Position numbers and translations under genes: made by a program. From Allostreptomyces psammosilenae (GTDB lineage: Bacteria; Actinomycetota; Actinomycetes; Streptomycetales; Streptomycetaceae): a DNA stretch of 64,000 bases. The DNA is taken from NCBI RefSeq assembly GCF_013407765.1, contig NZ_JACBZD010000002.1:940001-1004000 (forward strand), read 5' to 3'. Shown one piece after another: positions 23,938 to 46,339 of this stretch (positions within the stretch are counted from its first letter, which is position 1; each line of letters opens with the position of its first letter). Below the pieces are notes generated by a model. That model ran no database searches. It was given only the letters and a program-made list of their open reading frames with translations, and had not been told where the DNA came from.

Positions 23938-25113
23938 TCAGCGGGTGGGCCGGGTGGGCCCGGTGGGTGGGGCGGGGGAGGACGGGGAGCTCTCGGGCGC
24001 CCCCGAGTCCCCGGAATCCCCGGAATCCCCGGAGGTCCCGGACGCCCCGGAGGCCCCGGAGGCCCCGGAGGCCCCGGACGCCTCGGGCGCCCCGGCGGTC
24101 CGCGACGCCTCGGAGGACCCGGCGAGCGCCCGGACGGTGCGCGAGGGGCTCGGCCGGCCCAGGTGTCCGGCCAGCCAGACGCTGGTGGCGACCAGCCGGC
24201 GCAGGTCCACCCCGGTGTCGATGCCGAGGCCGTGCAGCATCCACACCAGGTCCTCGGTGGCGAGGTTCCCGGTGGCGCTGCGCGCGTACGGGCAGCCGCC
24301 CAGGCCGCCGGCGGAGGCGTCCACCACGGTGACGCCCGCGCGCAGCGCGGCCAGGGTGTTGGCCAGGGCCTGTCCGTAGGTGTCGTGGAAGTGCACGGCG
24401 AGCCGTTCCGGCCCGACGCCGGCCTCGCCGAACCGCTCCAGCAGGGCGGTGACCTGGCCCGGGGTGCCCACGCCGATGGTGTCGCCCAGGCTGAGTTCGG
24501 CGCAGCCCATCTCCAGCAGCCGGGTGCCGACCTCCACGACGCGGGCCGGGGGCACGGCGCCCTCCCAGGGGTCGCCGAAGCACATGGAGAGGTAGCCGCG
24601 CACGGTCAGCCCGGCGGCGGTGGCCCGCCGGACCACGGGGGCGAACATCTCCAGCGACTCGGCGACGGTCCGGTTGAGGTTGGCCCGGGCGAAGGACTCG
24701 GTGGCGCTGGCGAAGACGGCGATCTCCCGCACGTCGTGGGCGAGCGCCCGGTCCAGGCCCCGCTCGTTGGGGACCAGGACCGGAAGCCGCACGGCCTCCC
24801 GGCCGCCGACCGGCTCGCGCAGGTCGCGCAGCGCCGGCAGCAGCCGTTCGGCGTCGGCGAGCTGCGGCACCCAGGCGGGGTGGACCAGGCTGGTGGCCTC
24901 GATGGTGCGCAGCCCGGCGTCGGCGAGCCGGTGGACGAACTCGGCCTTGATCTCCACCGGGACGATCGCCGTCTCGTTCTGCAGGCCGTCGCGCGGCCCC
25001 ACCTCGTGCACCCGCACCCGGGGCGGCAGCCCGGGCAGGGGCACGGCGGTCGGCGGGCCGAGCCGGGCGGCGGTGCCCGTCCCGGCGGCGGCGTCGCCCG
25101 GACGGGGGTTCAC
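23938..25113 (-). CDS. hmgL: Hydroxymethylglutaryl-CoA lyase
   Basis: The 391-residue TIM-barrel lyase begins GTG 25113, overlapping the biotin carboxylase stop (GTGA). It shows VRVHEVGPRDGLQNE (catalytic Arg/Asp region) and the signature GCAELSLGDTIGVGTPGQV. HFHDTYGQALANTL provides metal-binding His residues, and GLGGCPYARSATGNLATED the catalytic Cys loop. It cleaves HMG-CoA to acetyl-CoA and acetoacetate, the last step of leucine degradation. The C-terminal 60 or so residues are a Ser/Gly/Ala/Pro-rich tail (SGASGASGASGTSGDSGDS) encoded by 9-bp tandem repeats at about 24001-24110. The core ends before the tail and looks intact. Confidence 0.94.
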   Translation of the reverse strand: MNPRPGDAAAGTGTAARLGPPTAVPLPGLPPRVRVHEVGPRDGLQNETAIVPVEIKAEFVHRLADAGLRTIEATSLVHPAWVPQLADAERLLPALRDLREPVGGREAVRLPVLVPNERGLDRALAHDVREIAVFASATESFARANLNRTVAESLEMFAPVVRRATAAGLTVRGYLSMCFGDPWEGAVPPARVVEVGTRLLEMGCAELSLGDTIGVGTPGQVTALLERFGEAGVGPERLAVHFHDTYGQALANTLAALRAGVTVVDASAGGLGGCPYARSATGNLATEDLVWMLHGLGIDTGVDLRRLVATSVWLAGHLGRPSPSRTVRALAGSSEASRTAGAPEASGASGASGASGASGTSGDSGDSGDSGAPESSPSSPAPPTGPTRPTR

Positions 25114-27602
25114 GGCGCGACCTCCGCCGCGGTGGTGCCCGCTTCGGTGGGGCCTGCCCCGGTGGTGCCCGCCCCGGTGGCATCGGAGCCGGTGGCATCG
25201 GAGCCGGTGGCATCGGAGCCGGTGGGGCCGGCCGCGTCGGGGGTTTCGGTGGCGCCGGTGGTACCGGTCGCGCCGTCGAGCCCGATGGCCTCGGCGGTCG
25301 CGGCGGCTTCGGGCGTCGGCGCGGCGTCGGTGGGCGGGGCCTCGTCGGGGCGCACCACGGCGAGGACCTGCTCCATGGCGACGGCCGTCCCGGGGGCCAC
25401 CCGGACCTCGACCACCGTGCCGTCGAAGGGCGCGGTCAGTGGATGCTCCATCTTCATCGCCTCCACCACCAGCAGGGCCTGCCCGCGGGTCACCGCGTCG
25501 CCCGGCGCCGCCTTGACCACGGTGACCGTGCCCGGCATGGGGGCGACCAGTTCGCCGCCCGCCTCGGCGGTCCGGCCGGTGCCCTCCTCCACCGGGTCGC
25601 CGACCCGCAGCCGCCAGGCGTCGCCGTCGCGCCCCAGCCACAGCGGCCAGCCCTCGCCGGGGCCGTCGCCGCCCTCGTCCAGGGCCTGGACGAAGGTGTG
25701 CACCAGGCCGTCCCACTCCAGGCGCAGTTCCCGGCCGCGGCCGGGCGACGGGGCGCCGAGCGTGGCGCGGGCCGGCCGCGGCGGCCCGTCGCCCACCGCC
25801 ACCTCGAAGCAGGGGCCGAGCCCGCGCACCCGCACCTCGGCCACTCCGGTGCCGCCCGGCGTCTGCCCGGCGAGACCGGGCCCGGGGGCGAGCCCGGGGG
25901 AGAGGCCGGGGCCGGCGGCGGTCAGGCGGAGGCGGTGCGCGGTCCAGGCGCGCTCGCCGGGGCGCCAGCCGGACGGCACGGCGAACGGGTCGGTCCAGCC
26001 GTCGGCGTCGGGTTCGGGCACCATGGCGAGCTGCCGGCTCAGCGCGGCGGCCACCAGCACCTCCTCCGGCGGCGGGGTGCCGGCGCCGGGCAGCAGCTCG
26101 GCCAGCGATCGCTCCACCAGGCCGGTGTCCAGCCGGCCGGCGACCACGTCGGGGTGGGCCAGCAGCCGCCGCAGGAAACCGGTGTTGGTGACGGTGCCGA
26201 GCACGCACAGCTCGCCGAGCGCCGCGCGCAGCCGGCGCAGCGCGGTGGCGCGGTCCGGGCCGTGCGCGACGACCTTGGCCAGCAGCGGGTCGTAGGCGGA
26301 GCCGACGACCGCGCCGGGGGCCAGGCCGGAGTCGGTGCGCACCGCCCAGTGCTCCCCCCGGTCCGGAGCGTCCGGAGCGTGCGGCGAGTCCGGAGCGTGC
26401 GGACCGTGTGGAGCGTCCGGAGCTCCCCGTTCCGGTCCGTGGCCGCGGCGCGGGGGGAGTGGCCCGGCCGTGCCGGGTTCGCGCAGCGCGAGGATTCGGC
26501 CGCCGGTGGGCAGGAAGCCGCGCGCCGGGTCCTCGGCGCAGATCCGGGCCTCCACGGCGTGCCCGTGGCGGCGCAGCTCGTGCTGCTCCCAGGGCAGGGG
26601 CTCGCCGGCGGCGACCCGCAGCTGCCACTCCACCAGGTCGAGCCCGGTGATCAGCTCGGTGACCGGGTGTTCCACCTGGAGCCGGGTGTTCATCTCCATG
26701 AAGTACCAGGTGGTGGGGGTGTCGGCGGGGACGATGAACTCGACGGTGCCGGCGCCGGTGTAGCCGCAGGCCCGGGCGACCCGCACCGCGGCCTGGCCCA
26801 TGGCCGCGCGGGTGGCCTCGTCCAGCAGCGGCGACGGCGCCTCCTCCACGATCTTCTGGTGGCGGCGTTGCAGGCTGCACTCGCGCTCGCCGAGGTGCAC
26901 GCAGTGGCCGTGGTCGTCGGCCAGCACCTGCACCTCGATGTGCCGGGGGCGCTCGATCCAGCGCTCCAGCAGCAGGGTGTCGTCGCCGAAGGCGGAGCGG
27001 GCCTCGCGGCGGGCGGCGGCGATCGCCTCGGCGAGCAGTTCCGGCTCGCGCACCAGCCGCATGCCCTTGCCGCCGCCGCCCGCGGAGGGTTTGAGCAGCA
27101 CGGGGAAGCCGACGCGGGCGGCGGCCTCGGCGAGCGCGGCGTCACCGGACGGCCCGGAGCCGCCGTCCGACGCGCCGCCCGTGGGCGCGCCGCCGGGCAC
27201 CACCGGCACGCCGGCGGCGGCCACCGCCGCCTTGGCCCGGATCTTGTCGCCCATCAGTTCCACCGCCCCGGCCGGCGGTCCGACGAAGGTCAGCCCGGCG
27301 GCGGTCACCGCGCGGGCGAAGGCGGCGTTCTCGGCGAGGAACCCGTAGCCCGGGTGCACGGCCGCCGCGCCGGTGCGCCGGGCCGCGGACACCAGGGCGT
27401 CGGCGTCGAGGTAGCCGCGCCCGCCGGACGGGCCGCCGAGCCGGACGGCGAGGTCGGCCGCCGCGACGTGCGGCGCCCCGGCGTCGTCGTCGTCGAAGAC
27501 GGCGACCGAACGGATGCCGAGCCGCCGCAGGGTGCGGATCACCCGGACGGCGATCTCGCCGCGGTTGGCGACCAGGACGGTGTCGAAGACGGAACCAGGC
27601 AC
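25110..27602 (-). CDS. Biotin-dependent acyl-CoA carboxylase alpha subunit (biotin carboxylase + BCCP), MCC-type
   Basis: The 830-residue protein begins VPGSVFDTVLVANRGEIAVR at GTG 27602, with GGGGG 6-10 nt upstream. The biotin carboxylase domain spans about 1-490 and contains GGGGKGMRLV (ATP-grasp Gly loop), ERECSLQRRHQKIVEEAPSP and EMNTRLQVEHPVTE. A BCCP domain (about 680-760) has the biotinyl-Lys motif VEAMKMEHPL near residue 716. In the carboxylase C-lobe, about 40 residues of Pro/His/Asp-rich repeats are inserted between ALREPG and RTDSGLAPG, an unusual place. A Ser/Asp/Ala/Thr repeat tail follows the BCCP. It carboxylates biotin for the beta subunit encoded just upstream. Confidence 0.93.
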   Translation of the reverse strand: MPGSVFDTVLVANRGEIAVRVIRTLRRLGIRSVAVFDDDDAGAPHVAAADLAVRLGGPSGGRGYLDADALVSAARRTGAAAVHPGYGFLAENAAFARAVTAAGLTFVGPPAGAVELMGDKIRAKAAVAAAGVPVVPGGAPTGGASDGGSGPSGDAALAEAAARVGFPVLLKPSAGGGGKGMRLVREPELLAEAIAAARREARSAFGDDTLLLERWIERPRHIEVQVLADDHGHCVHLGERECSLQRRHQKIVEEAPSPLLDEATRAAMGQAAVRVARACGYTGAGTVEFIVPADTPTTWYFMEMNTRLQVEHPVTELITGLDLVEWQLRVAAGEPLPWEQHELRRHGHAVEARICAEDPARGFLPTGGRILALREPGTAGPLPPRRGHGPERGAPDAPHGPHAPDSPHAPDAPDRGEHWAVRTDSGLAPGAVVGSAYDPLLAKVVAHGPDRATALRRLRAALGELCVLGTVTNTGFLRRLLAHPDVVAGRLDTGLVERSLAELLPGAGTPPPEEVLVAAALSRQLAMVPEPDADGWTDPFAVPSGWRPGERAWTAHRLRLTAAGPGLSPGLAPGPGLAGQTPGGTGVAEVRVRGLGPCFEVAVGDGPPRPARATLGAPSPGRGRELRLEWDGLVHTFVQALDEGGDGPGEGWPLWLGRDGDAWRLRVGDPVEEGTGRTAEAGGELVAPMPGTVTVVKAAPGDAVTRGQALLVVEAMKMEHPLTAPFDGTVVEVRVAPGTAVAMEQVLAVVRPDEAPPTDAAPTPEAAATAEAIGLDGATGTTGATETPDAAGPTGSDATGSDATGSDATGAGTTGAGPTEAGTTAAEVAP

Positions 27603-27622
27603 GCGCGCTGCCCCCTTTCCCC

Positions 27623-29338
27623 TCACATCCGGAAGACGCCGTACCCGGGCTCGGCCAGCGGCGCGTTCGCGCAGGCCGTCAGCGCCAGGCCGAGGACGGT
27701 GCGGGTGTCCCGCGGGTCGATGACGCCGTCGTCCCACAGGCGCGCGGTGGCGTAGTAGGCGTTGCCCTGCCGCTCGTACTGCTCGCGCACCGGGCGCTTG
27801 AACTCCTCCTCGGCCTCGGACGGCCACTGTTCGCCGCGGGCCGCCAGCTGGTCGCGCTTGACCGTCGCCAGCACCGAGGCGGCCTGCTCGCCGCCCATCA
27901 CCGAGATCCGGGCGCCCGGCCACATCCACAGGAAGCGCGGCGAGAAGGCCCGCCCGCACATGGAGTAGTTGCCCGCGCCGTAGGAGCCGCCGATCACCAC
28001 GGTCAGTTTGGGCACCCGGGCGCAGGCCACCGCGGTGACCATCTTGGCGCCGTGCTTGGCGATGCCGGCGGCCTCGTAGGCGCGGCCCACCATGAAGCCG
28101 GCCACGTTCTGCAGGAAGACCAGCGGCACGCCGCGCTGGTCGCACACCTCGACGAAGTGCGCGCCCTTCAGCGCCGACTCTCCGAACAGGATGCCGTTGT
28201 TGGCGACGATGCCCACCGGGTGCCCGTGCAGCCGGGCGAAGCCGGTCACCAGCGTGGTGCCGTACTCGGCCTTGAACTCCGCGAACCGGCTGCCGTCCAC
28301 GATGCGCGCGATGACCTCGCGCACGTCGTACGGGGTGCGGGGGTCGACCGGGACCGCCCCGTAGAGGCCGTCCGGGTCCACCGCCGGCTCCTCCACCGGG
28401 GCGACGTCCCACGGCCGTGGCGCGCGCGGCCCCAGGGTGGCCACGATGCGGCGCACGATGCGCAGCGCGTGCGCGTCGTCCTCGGCGAGGTGGTCGGTGA
28501 CGCCGGAGGTCCGGGCGTGCACCTCGCCGCCGCCCAGTTCCTCGGCGCTCACCACCTCGCCGGTCGCGGCCCGCACCAGCGGCGGGCCGCCCAGGAAGAT
28601 CGTGCCCTGGCCGCGCACGATCACCGCCTCGTCGCTCATCGCCGGCACGTAGGCGCCGCCGGCGGTGCAGGAGCCGAGCACGGCGGCGATCTGCGGGATG
28701 CCGGCGGCGGACATGGTGGCCTGGTTGTAGAAGATCCGGCCGAAGTGCTCGCGGTCCGGGAACACCTCGTCCTGCATCGGCAGGTACGCCCCGCCGGAGT
28801 CGACCAGGTACAGGCAGGGCAGCCGGTTGTGCAGCGCCACCTCCTGGGCACGCAGGTGCTTCTTGGCGGTCATCGGGTAGTAGGTGCCGCCCTTGACGGT
28901 GGCGTCGTTTGCCACGACCACCACCTCGCGGCCGGCCACCCGGCCGACGCCGGTGATGATGCCGGCGGCCGGCGCGGCGTCGTCGTACATGCCGTTCGCG
29001 GCCAGCGGGGACAGCTCCAGGAACGGCGAGCCGGGGTCGAGGAGGGCGTCCACCCGGTCCCGGGGGAGCAGTTTGCCGCGCGCGGTGTGCCGCTCCCGGG
29101 CCCGCCGGGAGGCGGGGGTGTCCCCGCCGACCCGGGCGGCGGCCAGTCGGGCGTTCAGCTCCGCGACCAGCGCGGCCTGCTCCTCGGCGTTGCGCCGGAA
29201 GCCCTCCGAGGCCGGGTCGACGGCGCTGCGCAGCACCGGCGCGGGGGCGGCCCGCGGGGCGGCGGCGCGCCGCGGGTCCGGCACGGCGTGGTGGTCCGCC
29301 ACGGCGTGTGCGGTGGCGGTGCGGGGCGGGTGTGCCAT
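27623..29338 (-). CDS. accD1: Methylcrotonyl-CoA carboxylase-type carboxyltransferase (beta) subunit
   Basis: The 571-residue crotonase-fold carboxyltransferase has [30 protein letters not shown], the hallmark of methylcrotonyl/geranyl-CoA carboxylase beta subunits. It also has [29 protein letters not shown] and the second-half motif [23 protein letters not shown]. It transfers CO2 from biotin to 3-methylcrotonyl-CoA in leucine breakdown. It is the first gene of the operon; ATG 29338 has GGAG 13 nt upstream. The N-terminal 50 residues are Ala/Pro-rich and look unstructured. The symbol follows the S. coelicolor locus with the same gene order, which I recall rather than checked. Confidence 0.93.
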
Positions 29339-30262: not shown

Positions 30263-33200
30263 TCACAGCTCCTCCTCCAGGGACATCCGGCCGACCTCCG
30301 GCAGGTGCTCGTCGAGTTCCCCCGGCTCGAACCGGGTCAGCCCGACGACGTGCCAGAACTCGCCGGCCACCTCCCCCTCGTACTTGTAGCGCCCGCCAGG
30401 GGTCACCGCCGCCCAGCCCTCGGGCATGCCCAGCAGCCCGCCCTTCTGCACGGTGCGCACGGTCCGCCCGCCGTCCTCGGTGAACACCCGCCACAGCCGC
30501 ACCACCCCGTCCTCGCCGCCGCCCGCCAGCAGCCGGCCGTCCGGACTGAACGCCAGCGACATCACGGCCCCGGCGGCGCCCTCCAACTCGCCCACCAGGC
30601 GGCCGGCCGCCGCGTCCCACAGCCGCACCACAGAGTCGTCCCCGCCGGTCGCGGCCACCCGGCCGTCCGGGTGCACGGCCGCGGTCCACAGCCGCCCGGT
30701 GTGCCGCCGCAGCCGGTGCCGCAGCCGGCCGCGCTCCCACACCAGCACGTCGCCGTCCCAGCCCACGCTGAGCAGCCAGGCGTCGTCCGGGGGGAACGCC
30801 ACCGCGTACACCCGGTCGGAGTGGCCGGCCAGCTCCGCGGTGCAGGTGCCGGCGGCCACGTCCCACAGCCGCACCAGGCCGTCGTCGCAGCCGGTGGCGA
30901 GCGTGGCGCCGGTGGAGGTGAAGGCGAGCGTGCGGGCCCGCCCCCGGTGGCCGCGCAGCACGCCGCGCGGGGTGCCGACGTCGCGGTCCCACAGCCGCAC
31001 CGTCTCGTCGTCGTTCGCGGTGGCCAGCAACTGCCCGTCCGGGCTGAACGCCTCCGCCCACACGTGGTCGGTCTCCACGTCCAGGCCGCGCACGAAGCGG
31101 GCGCTGACCGGCTCCCACAGGTGGACGTCGCCGTCGTTGGTGGCCGTCGCCAGCCGGCGGCCGTCGGGGGTGAAGCTGGCGGATATCAGCCGCCCGGACC
31201 GGCCGGTCAGCTCGGCGGTCCGCCGCCCGGTCACCGGGTCCCACAGCCGCACCACGCCGTCGTTGGAGGCCACCGCCAGCAGGTCGCCGGCGCCGCTGAA
31301 CGCCACCTGGCCGATCCGCCGGCCGTGGCCGCGCAGGATGTGCCGGCCCTGGCCCCGCACCGGGTCCCACAGCCGCAGCGTCCCGTCGTTGTCGCTGGTG
31401 ACCAGCCGGCTGCCGTCGGGGCGGAAGGCGCAGGCCCACACCGACCCCTCGTGGGCGTCCGGCTGCACCGGAAGCTCACGCAGCACCGGTTCGTGCGCCT
31501 GGCGCGCCGCGGGCGGCGGCGGGGGCGGCGGGGGCGGCCCGCCCGGCGCGGCGGCCCGGCCGGGGCCGACCCCGCCGGGCGCGGTGGGTCGGCCCGACGC
31601 GGGGAGCCGGCCGGGCGCGGCGCGGAGCGTCAGCCGCTCCCGCTCGCCGCCGCGCTCCCCCCGCGGGTCCCGGTCGCCGCCCCGCCCGTCCGACCCCGGC
31701 GGGGCGTCCTGGATCGGCACCCGCCGCGGCTCCTCCGCGACCCGCCACACCCGAACCGCGCCGGAGCTGTGGCTGGCCGCCAGCAGCTGGCCGTCCTGGC
31801 TGAACACCACGCGGTAGACGGCCCCCGAGTCCCGCTTCGGCTGCGCCATGGTGCGGCCGGTGGCCGGATCCCGCACCGGCACCCGGACACCGGTGGAGGG
31901 CACCCACACGTGCACCCCACCACCGGTGTCCCCGGCCGCCAGCAGCATGCCCTCGCGCACCGGACGGAAGCTCAGCGTGTACACCCGGCCGCCCAGCCCG
32001 GTCATCTCGTGCAGCAGCTCACCGGTGGCGGCGTCCCAGACGCGCACCGCGCCGCCGGCGCCCCCGTTGCCGCCCGGCCCCTCCGGCCCCCGGTCCGCGG
32101 TCGCCACCAGGGCGCCGTCCGGGCTGAACCGGGCCCGGTAGACCGGCCCGACGTGCCCGGGCAGCTCGTAGACGAGCCGGCCGGCCGCCGCGTCCCACAC
32201 CGTCACCCGGCCCGCGTCGTCCCCGACCACCAGCAGCCGCTCGTCCGGGTCGAAGCCGGCCGTGTACACGGTCGGGGTGTGCCCGTCCAGGGTGTGCAGC
32301 AGGGTGCCGGTGGCGGTGTCCCACAGCCGCACGGTGCCGGCCCGGTCCCCGGTGGCCAGCACCCGGCCGTGCGGGCCGGGCGCCATCGGCCACACCCCCG
32401 CCCGGTGCCCCTCCAGCCGGTGCACCAGCCGCCCGTCGGCCGCGTTCCACAGGCAGACCGCGCCGTCCGCCGCCCCGGTGAACAGCAACTGCCCGGCGAA
32501 CCGGACGGCGTACACCCGCGCGGTGTGCCCGCGCAGCCGGCGCAGCGGCGTCCCGTTGGAGCCGTCGCACACCATGACGCTGCCGTCCTCACTGCCCACC
32601 GCCAGCACGTCGCTGTCCCGGCTGTAGGAGATCGGCTCCGGCAGCCGGCTCGTCTCCAGGTCGAAGCCGTAGGGCACGCCCACCGTGGAGGGGCGCAGCC
32701 CCAGCTCCACCCGGCTGCCCGGGACGACCGCGGCACCGATCAGGTCCGGTGCCTCGGCCAGCTCCGGGCCGCCGGTGGCGGTGATCAGCGCCGCCCGGTT
32801 CCAGGAACTGCCGGCCACCTTCGCGCCGGTGACGTCGGTGCGGATCAGCCGCGCGCCGCGCAGGTCCGCGCCGGTCAGGTCGGCCCCGGACAGGTCCGCG
32901 CCGTCCAGCCGGGCGCCGGTCAGCTGCGCCCGGGCCAGCTTGGCGCCGGAGAGGTTGGCCGAGACCAGCCGGGCCCGCCGCAGGTCGGCCCCGGTGAGGT
33001 CCACCCCGGCCAGGTCCCGGTGCGAGAGGTCCTCGCCGCGCAGCACCGCGCCGCGCAGGTCGGTCTGGGTCGGCACCCGCAGCCGGGCCAGGATCCGGTC
33101 CGCGTTGGCCCGGGCCGCCTCGCCCGCGTCGGCGGTGCCGCTGCGCACCCAGCGCGCCCACTCCTGGCAGGCCCGGGGGTCGGCCAGGTCGCACAGGAAG

Positions 33201-36200
33201 TCCACGGCCAGCTGGGTGAGCGGCCTGCGGTGCAGCACGGGCAGCCCGGCCAGCGGCACGTCCGGACCGCCCGGGCCGTTCTCCCCGCCGAGCTGCCGGG
33301 CGGCGGCCCGGGCCACCAGCCACTCCGCGACCGAGCCGTGGATGAAGCCGAACAGCCCCTCCTCGGTGCGCACCAGCAGGCTGCCGGCGCCGATGGCGTG
33401 GGTCAGCTGCGCCACCGAGCGCTGGTCGACGGCGACCTCGGCCAGCGCCCGGGCCACGTCGGTCAGGTCGGCCATGCGCAGCGCCGGCATGTCCGCCTCC
33501 CACATGCGCAGCGCCAGCGCGGTGACGCCGCGCCACAGCTCGTCGGTGGACAGCCCCGGCGGCGCCCCCGGAATGCCGCGCCCGCGCTGCTCCTCGAACT
33601 CCAGCCACTCCTCCAGCAGGTGCTGGTACAGGCCGGCGGCGCTGAGCACCCGGCCGGAGCCGGCGGCGGCCCGCAGCCGCTCCTCGTCCAGCGCCGCGAC
33701 GAAGCCCAGCAGGCGCGGGTTGCGGCACAGCGACAGCAGGTTCGGCACGGCCGACAGCAGCCGCATCCGGCGCTCGGCGGCGTCCGCGTCCCCGGCGAAG
33801 TGCGCGGTCAGGTAGACCCGGATCTGCTCGTGGGTGAAGTCCTCCAGGGTGAGGACGCGGCGGTGCGGTAAGAGGCCGACCTGCTCGCCGAGCGCGGTGA
33901 AGACCTGCGCGTTGGAACGGAAGTGCTGGGTGCGGCTGGAGACCACGATCTTGGCGTCGTCCACGGCCGCGTCCAGCAGCTTCTGCAGGTGCTCGGTGGC
34001 CCGCTCGAAGCTGATCCGGGTGGCGAGCTCGTCGAAGCCGTCGAACAGCAGCACGATCCGGCCCTCGCGCAGCATGAAGCGGAAGGCCCGCAGGTTGAAG
34101 TCGACCTCGCCGTGGTTGGCCAGGTGGGCGGCGACCAGGCCGTCCACCCCGTGCGCCTTGTCCAGGGCGCGCAGCTCGATCAGGATCGGCACCAGGTGCG
34201 GGAGCTCGGCGGGGATCCGGCGGGCCACCTCGTGCAGCGCGAACGTCTTGCCGTGGCCGAAGTCGCCGAGCAGCAGCAGGAAACGGCCGTGGTCGGAGCC
34301 CAGCAGGCGCAGCAGCTCGTCCACGACGTCCTGCCGCACCTCGCCCTCGCCCTCGTTCAGGGTCCGGTAGCGCTGCGGCAGGTACAGCCGGGGGGGGTAG
34401 CGGGTGTCCAGGGTCAGCCGCCGGGTCTGCCGGGTGACGTAGTCGGTGAGGTCCAGCAGCCCCTGGAACTCCAGCAGGCTGCGCACCAGCACGCCCTGAC
34501 GGCGCCCCCAGGCGCGGATCGTCTCGGCCGGCGGCGGCCCGTCGTAGACCAGCTCGGCGTTGGACTCGGCGGCCGAGGCGTGCACGGCGTCCTGGAACGC
34601 GGCGACGTCCTCCCGGGTCGGGGTGCCCGGGCAGGCGGCGACCCGCTGCTGGCGGACGATGCCGTCCTCCCGGTAGGTGACCAGCAGGTGCGCCGGGTTG
34701 CCGGGGACGCGGCGCACCGCCGCGTCCGGGTGGCGCACCCGGCAGGTCTCCTCCAGCCGGTCCAGCAGCAGCTCGGTGGGGGTGGGGATGTCCCGGGGCC
34801 CGCCGCCGAGGGCGGGCCAGGCGCCGGTGGAGCCGCGGCCCGGTGCCCGGTCGCCGGCCCGCCGGCCGCCCGAGTCCGCGCCGGCCGGGTTGGAATCCGC
34901 GCCGCCACGGCCGGACCGCCCGCCGCCGAGGGTCGGCGGGTCCGGCCGCGCCGGCGGGGCGGGCGCGGCCGGTGGCGGGGCCCCGACCAGGGCGGCGTGC
35001 GCCGCGGGCCAGATGCGGGGGAGGTCCTCCGGGGCGCCCGGGACACCGCCGGGGCCGGCCTCCGCGGGCGCGCCGCGCCAGCGCCGCAGCCCCTCCGCGG
35101 TGATCCGCAGCAGCTGGTACCGGCCCGGCGCCGACGGCCCGGATTCCTCCGCCAGCGGCTCCGACCGGCCGCCGGCGCCCGGGCCGTGCAGCAGCAGGTG
35201 CAGGTGGGGGGAGAGCAGCTGGCGCAGCACGGTGGTGTCCCGCAGCGCCTCCGCGCCGGCCGCGCCGCGCCCGGTGGGCGGGTGGCGCACCGCCCCGAGC
35301 CGCAGCCAGCCCAGCTCCTCGTAGCGGGCCAGCCGCTGCGCGAACCAGGTCGCCTGCTCGCCGCCGAGCCAGCCGTAGTCGTCGTCCGGCCGGTGGGTGA
35401 CCGCGATCGTGGAGTTGAGCCCGGCCACCACGGTGCGCAGCTCCGGGACCTCGAAGAGGGTCCACGGCTGGGCCTCGTCGAAGACCAGCTCCAGGCCCTG
35501 GTACAGCTCGTGGAAGAGCGCGGCGAAGTGCTTGAGCTTGGGGAAGAACGGCGGGATCGGCTCGCGGTCCTCGGACTCCCGCTCGGTGAAGTAGGCCAGG
35601 CAGGCCAGCCGGTTGACGTCGCCGCCGCCGGGCACCACCACCAGGCGGTGCGGCTCCAGCCCGAGCAGCACCCGCAGGCCGGTCAGGAAGGTGAGCGCCT
35701 GTTCGAACTCGCGGGGCCGGCCGCTGGTGGTGAGGTCGCCGGTGACCACCAGCAGGTCCGGCGGCGGCGCGCCCGCGTCGGTCAGCCGCTGCACCTGGGA
35801 CCACAGCCGGGTCTGCGCCGCGCCGGGCTCCTCGCCGGCGCCGAAGCCCGGGCCGGCCACGTGCAGTACCGTCAGCCGCTCCCGAGGGCCGGCGGCGCGC
35901 TCCGGGCGGGAGGGCGGGAACGGGGGCGCGGCGGCCGGCCGCCGCCGCCCGGCCGGGCCGGGATCGGTGCGTCCCGGACCCGCCTCCCAGGGCGGGACGC
36001 CATCGATCTCCCACGGGCGCCCCGGAACGGCCCAGCCGCCGGACGGGGAGCGCTCCGCCCCGCCGCCCGGGTACCCGGGGCGGGCGAGCGGACGGGCCCG
36101 CCCGGCGAGCGCCTGCTCCAGCCGGGTGAGCAGCATCCAGCGAGCCGTCTCGGCGTCGGTGACCGGGGCCAGGTCGACGTAGGTGATGTTGGCCAGCAGG

Positions 36201-36568
36201 CCCTCCACCGGAACGTCCTCCACCCGCACGGTCACCAGCCGCGCCCCCGGGTTGTCCGGGTCCGAGCGCATCGCGGCCTGCCACTCCAGGCGGCCGAAGC
36301 GGGAGCGCTCGTAGTTGCCGGAGAGCACGGCCAGCACCACCGCGGCCTCCCGCACGCCGCGGTCCATGTACTCCATGAAGTTGGTGCCCGGCACGAAGTC
36401 CCAGGCCTGCACCATGGTGCGGTAGCCGGCCTCCTCCAGCGTCCAGGCCATCCAGGTGGCCCAGCGCTCGTCGGCCGGGGAGTAGCTGATGAAGAAGTCC
36501 AGCGGACGCTGCGCCCAGGTCTGATCCGAGTTCCCCAGCATGTCTGCCACTGTATGACCGGCCATCAC
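30263..36568 (-). CDS. NLR-like STAND protein: TIR - pseudo-phosphoesterase - NACHT - pentapeptide - WD40
   Basis: This single 2,101-residue polypeptide has these modules in order. TIR (about 22-155): DFFISYSPADERWATW through AVVLAVLSGNYERS and FGRLEWQAAM, where E95 is the candidate NADase Glu. A metallophosphoesterase-like region (about 225-470) follows, with its metal ligands replaced (LHVAGPGFG, VTGDLTT, VVVPGGGDVNR, LLLHGPGAGG). A degenerate restriction-endonuclease-like segment (about 590-715) is tentative. The NACHT ATPase has an intact Walker A GDFGHGKT (about 767) and Walker B IVLLFDGFDELA (about 837). Pentapeptide repeats (A-(D/N)-L-x-x) span about 1160-1260. WD40 blades come in groups of 7 and 8, split by a Pro-rich linker. 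An in-frame TTA codon lies at 33871-33869 (codon 900). TIR-STAND proteins of this plan are known or predicted anti-phage sensors; that role is inference here. Starts GTG 36568 or ATG 36565. Confidence 0.9.
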   Translation of the reverse strand: MMAGHTVADMLGNSDQTWAQRPLDFFISYSPADERWATWMAWTLEEAGYRTMVQAWDFVPGTNFMEYMDRGVREAAVVLAVLSGNYERSRFGRLEWQAAMRSDPDNPGARLVTVRVEDVPVEGLLANITYVDLAPVTDAETARWMLLTRLEQALAGRARPLARPGYPGGGAERSPSGGWAVPGRPWEIDGVPPWEAGPGRTDPGPAGRRRPAAAPPFPPSRPERAAGPRERLTVLHVAGPGFGAGEEPGAAQTRLWSQVQRLTDAGAPPPDLLVVTGDLTTSGRPREFEQALTFLTGLRVLLGLEPHRLVVVPGGGDVNRLACLAYFTERESEDREPIPPFFPKLKHFAALFHELYQGLELVFDEAQPWTLFEVPELRTVVAGLNSTIAVTHRPDDDYGWLGGEQATWFAQRLARYEELGWLRLGAVRHPPTGRGAAGAEALRDTTVLRQLLSPHLHLLLHGPGAGGRSEPLAEESGPSAPGRYQLLRITAEGLRRWRGAPAEAGPGGVPGAPEDLPRIWPAAHAALVGAPPPAAPAPPARPDPPTLGGGRSGRGGADSNPAGADSGGRRAGDRAPGRGSTGAWPALGGGPRDIPTPTELLLDRLEETCRVRHPDAAVRRVPGNPAHLLVTYREDGIVRQQRVAACPGTPTREDVAAFQDAVHASAAESNAELVYDGPPPAETIRAWGRRQGVLVRSLLEFQGLLDLTDYVTRQTRRLTLDTRYPPRLYLPQRYRTLNEGEGEVRQDVVDELLRLLGSDHGRFLLLLGDFGHGKTFALHEVARRIPAELPHLVPILIELRALDKAHGVDGLVAAHLANHGEVDFNLRAFRFMLREGRIVLLFDGFDELATRISFERATEHLQKLLDAAVDDAKIVVSSRTQHFRSNAQVFTALGEQVGLLPHRRVLTLEDFTHEQIRVYLTAHFAGDADAAERRMRLLSAVPNLLSLCRNPRLLGFVAALDEERLRAAAGSGRVLSAAGLYQHLLEEWLEFEEQRGRGIPGAPPGLSTDELWRGVTALALRMWEADMPALRMADLTDVARALAEVAVDQRSVAQLTHAIGAGSLLVRTEEGLFGFIHGSVAEWLVARAAARQLGGENGPGGPDVPLAGLPVLHRRPLTQLAVDFLCDLADPRACQEWARWVRSGTADAGEAARANADRILARLRVPTQTDLRGAVLRGEDLSHRDLAGVDLTGADLRRARLVSANLSGAKLARAQLTGARLDGADLSGADLTGADLRGARLIRTDVTGAKVAGSSWNRAALITATGGPELAEAPDLIGAAVVPGSRVELGLRPSTVGVPYGFDLETSRLPEPISYSRDSDVLAVGSEDGSVMVCDGSNGTPLRRLRGHTARVYAVRFAGQLLFTGAADGAVCLWNAADGRLVHRLEGHRAGVWPMAPGPHGRVLATGDRAGTVRLWDTATGTLLHTLDGHTPTVYTAGFDPDERLLVVGDDAGRVTVWDAAAGRLVYELPGHVGPVYRARFSPDGALVATADRGPEGPGGNGGAGGAVRVWDAATGELLHEMTGLGGRVYTLSFRPVREGMLLAAGDTGGGVHVWVPSTGVRVPVRDPATGRTMAQPKRDSGAVYRVVFSQDGQLLAASHSSGAVRVWRVAEEPRRVPIQDAPPGSDGRGGDRDPRGERGGERERLTLRAAPGRLPASGRPTAPGGVGPGRAAAPGGPPPPPPPPPAARQAHEPVLRELPVQPDAHEGSVWACAFRPDGSRLVTSDNDGTLRLWDPVRGQGRHILRGHGRRIGQVAFSGAGDLLAVASNDGVVRLWDPVTGRRTAELTGRSGRLISASFTPDGRRLATATNDGDVHLWEPVSARFVRGLDVETDHVWAEAFSPDGQLLATANDDETVRLWDRDVGTPRGVLRGHRGRARTLAFTSTGATLATGCDDGLVRLWDVAAGTCTAELAGHSDRVYAVAFPPDDAWLLSVGWDGDVLVWERGRLRHRLRRHTGRLWTAAVHPDGRVAATGGDDSVVRLWDAAAGRLVGELEGAAGAVMSLAFSPDGRLLAGGGEDGVVRLWRVFTEDGGRTVRTVQKGGLLGMPEGWAAVTPGGRYKYEGEVAGEFWHVVGLTRFEPGELDEHLPEVGRMSLEEEL

Positions 36569-36743: not shown

Positions 36744-37703
36744 CTAACCCAGCACGCCGGAGCGCGCCACCAGGTCCAGCAGCGCCTCCATCGCCTCCGG
36801 GCGGCCCGCCACGTAGGAGCGGTCGGCGTCCGGCAGCCCCAGCCGGTCGTCGAACGGGGTGCCGTCCAGCCGGCGGACGCTCACCCCGGCCTCGGCCGCG
36901 ATCAGGTAGCCGGCCGGCAGGTCGACGGCCTCCGCCTCGTACGCGACGAAGCCGTCGATGTCCCCGCGGGCGAGCATCACCCAGCACATCAGCGGCGCCC
37001 ACAGCTGCAGCACCCGCCGGGCCTCCGCCTCCAGGGCGTGCCGCAGCCGCAGCGCCCGCGGGTTTCCGCGGCCGACGCCGTGCCCCTGCGTCCAGGCCAG
37101 CAGCGGCCCCGCCGGGTGCACCGGCCGCGGCGGCGTGACCAGGCAGGTCTCATCCGGGCCCAGGGTGCCGCGGCCCCGGATGGCCGACCAGGTGCGGCCG
37201 GCCACCGGGTCGTGCACCACGCCCAGCACCGGATCGCGGTCCGCGCACAGCGCGATCCCCACGACGTACGCGGGCAGCCCGATGGCCACGTTGTTGGTCC
37301 CGTCCAGCGGGTCCACCACCCAGGTCCAGGTACGGCCCGGCTCCCCGCCGCCGGCCGCGGCCGCCCCGCCGGCGTCCCCCCCGGATCCGCCCCCCGCCGG
37401 GGACGCGGCCTCGCCCTCGAGGATGCCGGCCTCCTCGGAGATCACCCGGTCGGACGGGTACGCGGTGCGCAGCCGCTCCAGGATCAGCTTCTCGGAGAGC
37501 ACGTCCAGGCCGGTCACCAGGTCCCCCGAGGACCCTTTCGCCTGCACCTTCAGGTCACCGTGGAAGCGCTCGTGGACGGCCTCCCCGGCCTCCCGGGCCG
37601 CGGCCACCGCCAGCGCCCGGGCCCGCTCCAGGTCCCGGCCGTCACCCGGCTGGTCGCGTGGGCCGGCCCCCTCGGGCCGCTCAGAGGTCGGCATGGGCGG
37701 CAT
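36744..37703 (-). CDS. Inositol monophosphatase-family phosphatase
   Basis: The 319-residue Mg2+/Li+-type phosphatase has VISEEAGILEG (metal Glu), WVVDPLDGTNNVAIG (metal motif D-P-L-D-G-T-N) and EAVDLPAGYLIAAEAGVSV (third-metal Asp region). Substrates in the family include inositol phosphates, PAP, fructose bisphosphate and histidinol phosphate; the substrate here cannot be told. A Gly/Ala-rich insertion of about 25 residues separates the first two motifs. ATG 37703 is chosen because GGGAGG lies 4 nt upstream; it overlaps the upstream cupin-like gene by 23 bp, so translation is probably coupled. It lies 175 bp 5' of the NLR-like gene, on the same strand. Confidence 0.9.
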   Translation of the reverse strand: MPPMPTSERPEGAGPRDQPGDGRDLERARALAVAAAREAGEAVHERFHGDLKVQAKGSSGDLVTGLDVLSEKLILERLRTAYPSDRVISEEAGILEGEAASPAGGGSGGDAGGAAAAGGGEPGRTWTWVVDPLDGTNNVAIGLPAYVVGIALCADRDPVLGVVHDPVAGRTWSAIRGRGTLGPDETCLVTPPRPVHPAGPLLAWTQGHGVGRGNPRALRLRHALEAEARRVLQLWAPLMCWVMLARGDIDGFVAYEAEAVDLPAGYLIAAEAGVSVRRLDGTPFDDRLGLPDADRSYVAGRPEAMEALLDLVARSGVLG

Positions 37704-38376
37704 GGATCCTCCCGGCGATCGCTTCGGCCACGCGGACGGTCTCGGAGCGGTCGCACAGGCGCCGGTCGACGACGTGCGATCCGGCGTCCAGCGGCCCCAA
37801 CGACAGGTCGGTGCGGCTCGCCCGGGCACGGCCCAGAACGACGGTCACCGCCGTGGTCCTGTCGTCCACTGTCGACGTGTGGAATTCCCCGGCCGGCAGC
37901 GTGTACACCTGGCCCGGCCCACTTCTCTCGACACGCGCCGGCGCACAGCGCACAACGCGGTCGGTCGGCACGATGCGGTCCGTGCCGTCGGAACTGTGTA
38001 CTTCGAACACCCGGTGGGTGGGCTCCTCGCCCGGCCCGGTGGAGTCCGACACCCGCATCCAGGTGTTCTCCACGTGACCGGACAGCACGACGCTGGTCAT
38101 GTCCCAACTGTGGCAGTGCACCTCGGAGGTCGTGGGCCGTTCGGTCTCCACCGGCGCGCCGCCGTTCCACGGCGCGCTCCACGGGTTGAACAGGTGCACG
38201 CACACCCCCAGGTCGCCCTCGCGCTGCACCGGCAGGCAGAGGAAGCCCAGCGGGTGGCGGACCGCCAGCAGCGCCCGCCGCCCGTCGGCGATCTCGGCCA
38301 GCGTGGCCAGCGCCCGGGGCGGCACGGCATCCACCTCCCCGCGCGCCAGCAGGCCCTCTAACACCGTGTACTCCAT
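37681..38376 (-). CDS. Cupin-like hypothetical protein with TTA codon
   Basis: The 231-residue protein has no family I can name with confidence. The centre (SEVHCHSWDMTSVVLSGHVENTWMRV) and VYTLPAGEFHTSTV resemble the two His-containing motifs of a cupin barrel, as in small dioxygenases or cysteine-dioxygenase-like proteins. Codon 6 is TTA (38361-38359), placed where it would block translation early without the bldA tRNA. The downstream IMPase gene overlaps it, so that gene is likely affected too. ATG 38376 has AGGTGG about 9-14 nt upstream. Confidence 0.75.
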   Translation of the reverse strand: MEYTVLEGLLARGEVDAVPPRALATLAEIADGRRALLAVRHPLGFLCLPVQREGDLGVCVHLFNPWSAPWNGGAPVETERPTTSEVHCHSWDMTSVVLSGHVENTWMRVSDSTGPGEEPTHRVFEVHSSDGTDRIVPTDRVVRCAPARVERSGPGQVYTLPAGEFHTSTVDDRTTAVTVVLGRARASRTDLSLGPLDAGSHVVDRRLCDRSETVRVAEAIAGRIHAAHADL

Positions 38377-38635: not shown

Positions 38636-39634
38636 TCACCGCCGGTAGGGGTTCTGCGCGTGCAGGGCCTTGGAGACGATCGCCGCGACGTCGAGGTCGG
38701 AGAAGCTCTCCGGCAGCGGCAGGCCCACCCGCTCGAACAGCTCCCGGGCCGCGTCCACGGAGGGCTCCTCGTCCAGCCGCTGCGCCTGGCGCAGCGGGAC
38801 CGGACGTCCCTGCTCGTGGCTGACCCGCAGCTCCGTCACGTAGTAGTCGTACAGCGGCTTGCCGCGCTCCACCAGCAGGTTCACCCGCTCCGGGTCGTCC
38901 TGGGTGATGACCAGGCAGGACGCCGACATGTCCCAGCGCAGCGTCGGCATCGTGCTGGACAGCGACACCTCGATGTCCAGGGACGGCAGGCGCTGGGCGT
39001 ACCAGCAGGCGGCCAGGACGGTGGCGTACGACTCCAGACGGGTGCGCTTGGGCGTCCAGCCGTCCAGCGCCGGGTTGCCCAGGTGCCGGGTGAACGAGGT
39101 GCGGAAGTGCGCGTAGCGCTCGCAGACGCGCACGTCGGAGGGGTCGATGATGTCCAGCTGCATGGTGAGCGAGCGGCGCGCGATCCGGGCCAGGTGCACG
39201 CACTCCGGCAGCGTGACCGCCCGCATGTAGGTGCCCGTGCCGCCCTTGAAGAACCAGCGGTCGGTGTCCCGGCGGGCCGCCGCCAGCGCCTCCTCGACCT
39301 CCGGCCCGGTGATCGCCCGCGCCATCGACAGTTCCTCCAGGGCGACCCGGCTGGCCGCCATGGTGTCCGTTGCCCCGAGCAGCGCCCGCCGGCTCTCCTC
39401 GGACAGCCGCCGCACCTCGTCCACCGCGTGCCGCAGCTCGCCGGAGTTGCGCGCGCGGTCCTGCAGCATGCCGACCACCAGCGCGGCCAGCACCAGCAGG
39501 GTGGCGCCGCGCACCATGTTGTCCCGCAGGACGTCGGCGAAGAGGTCCAGGAAGGCGAAGACGACGGCGACCACGATCGCCAGCACGCCGTCCGCGTTCC
39601 GTGCGAGCCACCCGATCAGCCGGCCCATCTCCAT
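38636..39634 (-). CDS. Two-TM membrane protein with cytoplasmic domain
   Basis: The 332-residue protein has two N-terminal TM helices (VLAIVVAVVFAFLDLF and ATLLVLAALVVGML, about residues 14-55), then a short helical linker (AVDEVRRLSEESRRALLG). A soluble domain of about 230 residues follows (WFFKGGTGTYMRAVTLPECVHLARIARRS, DPSDVRVCERYAHFR). I do not recognise the domain with certainty. The layout of paired TM helices plus soluble domain recalls membrane-acting effectors of bacterial defence systems, but no such homology was verified. ATG 39634 has GGGAGGG 4-10 nt upstream. A 15-bp palindrome lies 88 bp upstream. Confidence 0.75.
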   Translation of the reverse strand: MEMGRLIGWLARNADGVLAIVVAVVFAFLDLFADVLRDNMVRGATLLVLAALVVGMLQDRARNSGELRHAVDEVRRLSEESRRALLGATDTMAASRVALEELSMARAITGPEVEEALAAARRDTDRWFFKGGTGTYMRAVTLPECVHLARIARRSLTMQLDIIDPSDVRVCERYAHFRTSFTRHLGNPALDGWTPKRTRLESYATVLAACWYAQRLPSLDIEVSLSSTMPTLRWDMSASCLVITQDDPERVNLLVERGKPLYDYYVTELRVSHEQGRPVPLRQAQRLDEEPSVDAARELFERVGLPLPESFSDLDVAAIVSKALHAQNPYRR

Positions 39635-39904: not shown

Positions 39905-40834
39905 TCAGTCCACCGGCAGCCCGGCCGCGTGCAGCAGGTAGGCCGTCATCGGCTCGTACAGGTGCGGCGGCACGTTGTCGTCCAGCGGCACGGTCACCAG
40001 CAGGTCGCCCTGCGCCTCCCCGAGGAACAGCGCCGGGTCGTTGCAGTCCGCGAACCCCACCGTGTCGACGCCCCGGGCCCCCGCCCCGCCCGCCCAGCCG
40101 TGGTCCGCCACCACCAGGTCCGGCCCCGGCGAACCCTGCGCCGCCAGGGCGTCCAGCACCCGGTGGACGAACTCCGCCGAGTGGGTGTGGCGCAGGTCGC
40201 CGTGCGCCCGCAGCACGGCGACGTGCTCGATCCGCCGCACCTCGCCCTCCTCGCGGAAGATCCCCATCCAGCGCTCCTTCGTCGCCGAGGGCAGGTTCAC
40301 GATGCCCTCCGGCGCCGCCAGCAGCTCACAGCCCGCCCGGCGCAGCGCCCGCCCGATCGCCAGGTGCACCGGCAGCAGCCCGGTCGGGTGCCCGGTGGCC
40401 AGGAACACCCGCTCCCGGCGGCGCGCCGCCGCGCGCAGCCGGACCGCCATCCGCTCCAGGGCGGCCACCGTCAGCTCCGGGTCGATGGTGTCCTGGCCGC
40501 GGCCGTGCTCGGGATCCGGCGAGACCCCGCAGCGGCTCGCCATCTCGGCCAGCGTCGCCTCGTACGTCCACCGGTCGCCGTCCAGCTCCAGGCCGAGCCA
40601 GTAGTAGCGGTTGCCGGCGGCGAGCTGCCGGTAGTGGTCGAGGTTGTTCTCCCGGGGCGTGGCCACGTTCCCCGCGATGCGGGAGTGCACCAGGTGCTCG
40701 ACCAGTTCGGAACGGCTGGGGACGGACTCGTACATGCGCCGCAATCTGCTCGGACGGTCGGGACGGAAGGTGGTGCGCACCCGGAGGTGGAGGCCACGGG
40801 GCTTGGCGTGCCGACGACGCTGCTGCTCCGTCAC
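39905..40834 (-). CDS. Phosphatase-like protein in ArsR operon
   Basis: The 309-residue protein is of the kind usually labelled phosphatase in Streptomyces genomes. It has an Arg-rich N-terminus, LVEHLVHSRIAGNVATPRENN, LATGHPTGLLPVHLAIGRALRRAGCELLAAPEGI and PDLVVADHGWAGGAG near the C-terminus. No standard catalytic signature (HAD, DxD or PTP) is obvious to me, so the catalytic call rests on family recollection. GTG 40834 overlaps the ArsR stop (GTGA), so the two genes are co-transcribed and translationally coupled. Confidence 0.7.
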   Translation of the reverse strand: MTEQQRRRHAKPRGLHLRVRTTFRPDRPSRLRRMYESVPSRSELVEHLVHSRIAGNVATPRENNLDHYRQLAAGNRYYWLGLELDGDRWTYEATLAEMASRCGVSPDPEHGRGQDTIDPELTVAALERMAVRLRAAARRRERVFLATGHPTGLLPVHLAIGRALRRAGCELLAAPEGIVNLPSATKERWMGIFREEGEVRRIEHVAVLRAHGDLRHTHSAEFVHRVLDALAAQGSPGPDLVVADHGWAGGAGARGVDTVGFADCNDPALFLGEAQGDLLVTVPLDDNVPPHLYEPMTAYLLHAAGLPVD

Positions 40835-46232: not shown

Positions 46233-46339
46233 GGTGCGAAGTTCCCTTCTGTTGCCGGATGAGGCCGGCTCAGACCGGCGCTCCGACAGGGGCGGCGACG
46301 GCCTGGGCTCCGCCCGTATCTTCATCAGACAATCAGCTC

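Follow-up and report, generated by a model that had tools for sequence, protein, structure and literature searches.

The window analysed here is a stretch of 64,000 nucleotides from Allostreptomyces psammosilenae (contig NZ_JACBZD010000002.1, positions 940,001 to 1,004,000). Its reverse strand carries, at 30263..36568, a gene for a protein of 2,101 amino acids. This protein joins a TIR domain, a pseudo-phosphoesterase, an NA-iREase3 domain, a NACHT NTPase, pentapeptide repeats and 15 WD40 blades, and we refer to it as the receptor. We read it as an NLR-related receptor within a conserved signalling or cell-arrest cassette (probability about 0.45). In this reading the TIR would cleave NAD+ and feed a pair of partners, one at the membrane and one a cupin. 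The anatomy, the conservation and the linkage were obtained from the sequence, and the steps of the mechanism we infer. The main new point is the cassette, together with two of its families (c1 and c4), which recur as a pair and have no Pfam or NCBIfam model.

The five-gene cassette

Besides the receptor, four clusters of neighbouring genes occur in 19-24 loci. The next commonest occurs in 4, and other neighbours vary by locus. The four recurrent clusters are c1, c4, c2 and c3. An alignment-based scan of contigs from 84,980 species gave 485 candidate stretches, and the best 80 were used as named loci. In the commonest order among these, c1, c4 and c2 share a strand, c3 is divergent, and the receptor comes last. 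The window retains c1, c4 and c2, all on the receptor's strand. Here c4 and c2 overlap by 23 nt, so their translation is probably coupled, and a gap of about 175 bp separates the end of c2 from the receptor. We did not find c3 in the window's genome, using a query that detects it in a control genome.

Co-occurrence was high in both sets of relatives. All 80 named loci have c3, and 70 of them have the full set of four partners. Among 29 complete loci of the same family, c3 and c4 are each present in 29, c2 in 28 and c1 in 26. Strong c1 matches were found in 28 of 31 receptor-positive Streptomycetaceae genomes versus 1 of 359 receptor-negative ones (Fisher 3e-38, a p value overstated by the non-independence of related genomes). 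Distances among the partners follow those among the receptors (Spearman 0.79-0.85), and shared descent explains part of this. On this linkage, the receptor is one member of a five-gene, co-inherited cassette in mycelial actinomycetes. The first-pass annotation had considered it alone, a view that does not hold.

The c2 gene (36744..37703, reverse strand) encodes 319 aa and matches the inositol-monophosphatase family (Inositol_P PF00459, 3.5e-39). Its motifs EE and DPLDG are intact in the window and kept in 99/100 relatives. By family score and catalytic motifs, c2 is a predicted inositol-monophosphatase-family enzyme. The c4 gene (37681..38376, reverse strand) encodes a cupin-like protein of 231 aa with both cupin motifs and their His ligands. 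HxHSW is present in 102/102 relatives, and the GxxYxLxxGxxH-type motif in 92/102. No Pfam or NCBIfam family matched c4.

The c1 gene (38636..39634, reverse strand; 332 aa) combines two predicted hydrophobic N-terminal helices with a candidate phospholipase-D-like fold, by hydropathy and predicted structure. The two hydrophobic stretches occur in the window and in 76/98 relatives. The model of the soluble domain gave VIA Z scores of 11.0 with SauUSI, 10.4 with Nuc and 10.0 with FAM83B, and a Foldseek E of 5e-3 at best. The HxKxxxxD motif is present in 0/98 relatives. On this moderate fold match, c1 is a candidate membrane-anchored, catalytically dead phospholipase-D-like protein. Finally, c3 resembles permeases of the ArsB/CitMHS type. 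It is divergent and scores below the NCBIfam cut-offs. PADLOC has no model for any of c1-c4.

The pair also exists outside the cassette. At five loci, c1 is directly followed by c4 with no receptor present. One locus is on a plasmid of Rhodococcus opacus, one on a plasmid of Methylobacterium, and three are in genomes of Streptomycetaceae (L175:5737-7315, L176:5683-7240, L178:9296-10922, L179:9563-11258 and L180:9023-10997). It means that c1-c4 is a reusable module. Just upstream of one pair lies a gene for an Mrr_cat-nSTAND3 protein of 758 aa (L179:6848-9124). At another locus, c4 carries a fused Nudix domain (L180:9939-10997; PF00293, 1.5e-15). The Nudix family includes ADP-ribose hydrolases. 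We infer that this fusion points to ADP-ribose-like chemistry.

The flanks of the window are metabolic and do not form a defence island. Downstream of the receptor lie genes for a methylcrotonyl-CoA carboxylase-type carboxyltransferase and a biotin carboxylase (25113-29338). A PF15698 'Phosphatase' gene (39908-40834) is directly upstream of c1 and outside the conserved cassette. Further along, an Immune inhibitor A-type M6 metallopeptidase is encoded at 43842-46325 (PF05547, 8e-98).

Intact and dead modules of the receptor

The open reading frame of the receptor is intact over its 2,101 residues, as first described, and has a GTG start. Its G+C by codon position is 0.79/0.55/0.98 (third position 0.976), a pattern that fits a translated gene. 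Translation is likely to begin instead at an ATG (36541, residue 10), because relatives show no conservation over residues 1-22 (17% identity). In the loci L052, L053, L054, L056, L058 and L060, apparent N-terminal extensions of 350-700 residues suggested an extra domain. They were rejected because they are open frames antisense over the c3 gene. In genomes of high GC content, such frames can mislead annotation.

Pfam, NCBIfam and segment scans, with AlphaFold and Foldseek for the phosphoesterase, recovered every domain that the first-pass annotation had named (TIR, phosphoesterase-like, NACHT, pentapeptide and WD40). It had missed NA-iREase3, a conserved C-terminal tail and the operon partners. 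For residue counts we used 105 distinct sequences, window included, which remain after the overlap between the Streptomycetaceae and named-locus sets is removed.

The effector and the switch are the intact modules. The TIR domain (residues 25-136; 36161..36496, reverse strand) matches Pfam TIR_2 with E 1.6e-32. Its candidate catalytic residue, Glu95 (36284..36286, reverse strand), lies in LEWQAAM as proposed from the sequence. It is Glu in 104/104 sequences (1 of the 105 is truncated there), and the neighbouring residues are also invariant. The TIR fold and the catalytic Glu are those of a TIR NADase, so NAD+ cleavage is a putative activity. The NACHT NTPase (residues 763-925; 33794..34282, reverse strand) matches PF05729 over its cut-off (E 1.2e-10). 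The P-loop GDFGHGKT (residue 768; 34244..34267, reverse strand) conserves G771, G773, K774 and T775 in 105/105. Likewise, the Walker B motif LLFDGFDE (residue 840; 34028..34051, reverse strand) conserves D843, D846 and E847 in 105/105. Both motifs are thus intact, as the first reading of the sequence had it. The mean identity of relatives to the window protein is 69% for TIR and 69% for NACHT.

Between these two modules, the first-pass annotation had proposed one dead effector-like domain. Two are present, a pseudo-phosphoesterase and a pseudo-restriction-endonuclease. The first has a calcineurin-like fold (residues 229-505; 35054..35884, reverse strand). Its Pfam match is marginal (0.036), and an NCBIfam anti-phage phosphoesterase model matches with 9.5e-12. 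We modelled residues 229-719 with AlphaFold (mean pLDDT 76) and compared the phosphoesterase segment using Foldseek and VIA. It matches Rv0805 (Foldseek 1.6e-9; VIA Z 19.9; rmsd 3.0 over 215 residues) and GpdQ (Foldseek 3e-9), which are class III cyclic-nucleotide phosphodiesterases. The predicted fold is common to these enzymes and the receptor. However, the Asp of the metal-binding motif I is replaced with Gly in all 105 sequences of the receptor family, and the paired His is present in 0/105. The Asp of motif II (GD) is present in 81/105. In the GNHD motif, the Asp is kept and the Asn-His are not. His429 and Asn385 are invariant. The segment therefore has the fold of a calcineurin-like phosphoesterase without the metal ligands (DxH / GD / GNH(D)) of an active one. 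Its mean identity to the window protein is 56%, versus 52-58% for the iREase and the propellers. Since the DxH and GNH motifs are lost or altered while the domain stays conserved, it is, by its residues, a retained pseudoenzyme.

The second is NA-iREase3, a NACHT-associated inactive restriction endonuclease-like domain (residues 600-707; 34448..34771, reverse strand). It matches PF22739 with E 9.2e-39 and 133 bits, versus a cut-off of 27. The segment has few invariant acidic residues, which agrees with the inactive label in the Pfam name.

The C-terminal part begins with a block of pentapeptide repeats (residues 1166-1262; 32783..33073, reverse strand; Pfam 1.9e-36). Domain scans and blade spacing define a first WD40 propeller of 7 blades (residues 1292-1609; 31742..32695, reverse strand) and a second of 8 (residues 1695-2027; 30488..31486, reverse strand). 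The regular spacing gives 7 + 8 = 15, in agreement with the earlier estimate. The tail (residues 2028-2101; 30266..30487, reverse strand) has a conserved consensus in relatives and no Pfam match. Pentapeptides, blades and tail fill this part, and leucine-rich repeats are not present. For this reason the receptor is termed NLR-related and not NLR. With a central NACHT, an N-terminal effector and C-terminal sensor repeats, its predicted layout is that of the bacterial NLR-related (bNACHT/STAND) proteins. PADLOC gave only weak partial matches to the receptor, and in NCBIfam it matches models of anti-phage NACHT proteins weakly.

Each position of the blades tends to be conserved, and hypervariable sites are rare (few positions above 2.8 bits in any blade). 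Hypervariable propellers, as the signature of an arms race, were thus not seen.

Relatives and inheritance

The PF22739 search was positive in 32/395 Streptomycetaceae genomes. At phylum level it found the own genome only among 396, a thin sample. The family is not confined to Streptomycetaceae, as the alignment-based scan finds relatives in other families. A single-sequence scan of genome contigs with the N-terminal part of the receptor gave no match; this reflects its limited sensitivity, since the alignment scan succeeded. The named loci belong to Streptomyces, Kitasatospora, Streptacidiphilus, Actinomadura, Streptosporangium, Nonomuraea, Herbidospora, Nocardia, Micromonospora, Amycolatopsis and others. 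All 80 carry every part of the receptor, except one that lacks only the tail, at a contig end. The Streptomycetaceae loci show the same domain order throughout, and the two incomplete ones are at contig ends. In total, the whole order is kept in about 100 distinct relatives from six families of Actinomycetes. The first-pass annotation had suggested a search for the same domain order in other genomes and a possible new combination. The search was fruitful, and the architecture is not a one-off; one of its domains was already a curated Pfam family.

On the receptor tree (75 rows), every family but one forms a strongly supported group; the exception is Streptosporangiaceae, paraphyletic to Thermomonosporaceae. 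The label changes are 5 for 6 families and 11 for genera, in each case the minimum possible by our count of the genera. The rows are best-scoring loci (best 80 of 485), which may hide transfers, and the pattern is read from the receptor tree itself. No copy of the receptor was found on the phages or viral contigs searched, nor on true plasmids. The only full plasmid match (L177, NZ_LT559118.1), which matches c1 and the receptor, is an 11.85 Mb replicon of Nonomuraea gerenzanensis, most likely a misfiled chromosome. A mobile origin was rejected on the outcome of these searches. Given the lack of copies and the minimum label changes, the inheritance looks vertical with frequent loss, unlike that of a typical mobile defence gene.

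Proposed mechanism and alternatives

At rest, an ADP-bound NACHT would hold the TIRs apart. A cue at the propeller and pentapeptide region would lead to nucleotide exchange and oligomerisation of the NACHT. The clustered TIRs might then cleave NAD+ to an ADP-ribose-type product. Part of the effect would come from the loss of NAD+. For the rest, the product would serve as a messenger that c1 and c4 read together at the membrane, and c2 may take phosphate off it, shaping or ending the signal. Both dead domains, the phosphoesterase and the endonuclease-like one, would be retained as binding or scaffold modules between TIR and NACHT. The trigger may be a conserved disturbance of the cell, which phage could but need not induce. 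A wider version is tentative: an ancient, vertical, chromosomal alarm pathway of mycelial actinomycetes, derived from NAD+. There, the messenger of the TIR-NACHT receptor, with its two retained dead enzymes, would be read by a new c1-c4 membrane/cupin module, shared with other NTPase and Nudix contexts.

Several points weigh against the proposed signalling cassette. The fold match of c1 is moderate (Foldseek E >1e-3; VIA Z 11), and its membrane topology comes from hydropathy and from a region modelled with low confidence. The known ADP-ribose-binding domains SLOG and Macro were not among the partners in Pfam and NCBIfam scans. Some parts are dispensable, as c1 is missing from three loci of the same family and c3 from the window's genome. 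The enzyme activity, the ligand and the phenotype of the cassette are all putative. The TIR could also be a non-enzymatic scaffold. More precisely, it would be an oligomerisation module, and signalling by the cassette would be limited to contacts between proteins and to effects of c1 on the membrane. Among solved TIRs, those of animal TLR/MyD88 adaptors are nearest in sequence, although the matches are weak. However, the invariance of Glu95 and its adjacent residues makes this version improbable.

Bacterial NLR-type receptors are known mostly as phage sensors. The receptor could be a stand-alone sensor for abortive infection. Its propellers would bind a phage protein, the TIR would deplete NAD+, the cell would die, and the neighbouring genes would be incidental. 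Bacterial NACHT defence proteins are described with the same tripartite layout (PMC12169576), and the NCBIfam matches, weak as they are, to anti-phage NACHT proteins and to an anti-phage phosphoesterase agree with this reading. However, the receptor is tightly co-inherited with c1, c4, c2 and c3. In addition, it has no copies on the phages, viral contigs and true plasmids searched, its pattern is vertical at family and genus level, and the window flanks are metabolic. The first-pass annotation had also read the propellers as sensors of a phage or stress ligand; their blade-by-blade conservation and vertical inheritance are unlike those of an arms-race sensor. We consider the stand-alone sensor possible but doubtful.

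Somewhat less likely is a role outside phage immunity, in which the receptor regulates housekeeping or development in mycelial actinomycetes, through cell death or arrest under stress. Here the receptor would monitor a metabolite or ion status tied to the permease, the phosphatase and the cupin. The minimum label changes fit this idea, as do the positional conservation of the blades and the permease that always adjoins the receptor in the named loci. On the other hand, only 32/395 Streptomycetaceae genomes carry the receptor, which means that it is dispensable. Its domain types are those of conflict systems, and the choice of the best 80 of 485 may hide transfers.

The NLR-related receptor in a signalling cassette can be compared with known systems. 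STAND NTPases combine a sensor at the C-terminus, a switch, and an effector at the N-terminus (PMC12169576). The bNACHT proteins, such as bNACHT25, likewise have a central NACHT with P-loop and Walker B, an N-terminal effector and a C-terminal sensor region. Compared with bNACHT25 (PMC12169576), which has a DNase effector, the receptor has a TIR, two inserted dead domains, WD40 propellers as putative sensor and a conserved multi-gene cassette. The PF22739 family, whose cut-off the receptor far exceeds, names the domain only and not the full architecture. A literature search for this domain set, alone or with a cupin or inositol monophosphatase, found no description of the architecture or cassette, with most subscription papers outside its reach.

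For TIR genes paired with two-helix membrane SLATT proteins, ADP-ribose-regulated effectors have been proposed (PMC9503650). These Thoeris-like systems also link a TIR enzyme candidate to a small two-helix membrane protein. In contrast, the TIR here is on a NACHT receptor, the partner has a putative dead phospholipase-D-like fold and matches neither SLOG nor Macro, and a cupin and a phosphatase are added. SLOG, Macro and SLATT gave no score in c1, c4 and c2 in Pfam, NCBIfam and PADLOC scans, though c1 may have a remote SLATT-like anchor. Finally, the NTPase conflict systems of multicellular bacteria include STAND NTPases with TIR, calcineurin-like, pentapeptide and propeller modules, and recurrent inactive domains (PMC7159879, PMC8195603). 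No vWA, MoxR, EAD or TRADD-N was recognised here, and the architecture is fixed, not one of swapped effectors.

What the dead enzymes bind, conserved as they are between effector and switch, is a question that follows from these results. With a receptor of fixed architecture, long tied to the same partners and vertical in its pattern, it becomes testable whether some bacterial NLR-related proteins serve a built-in pathway of cell arrest and not a swapped-in defence.

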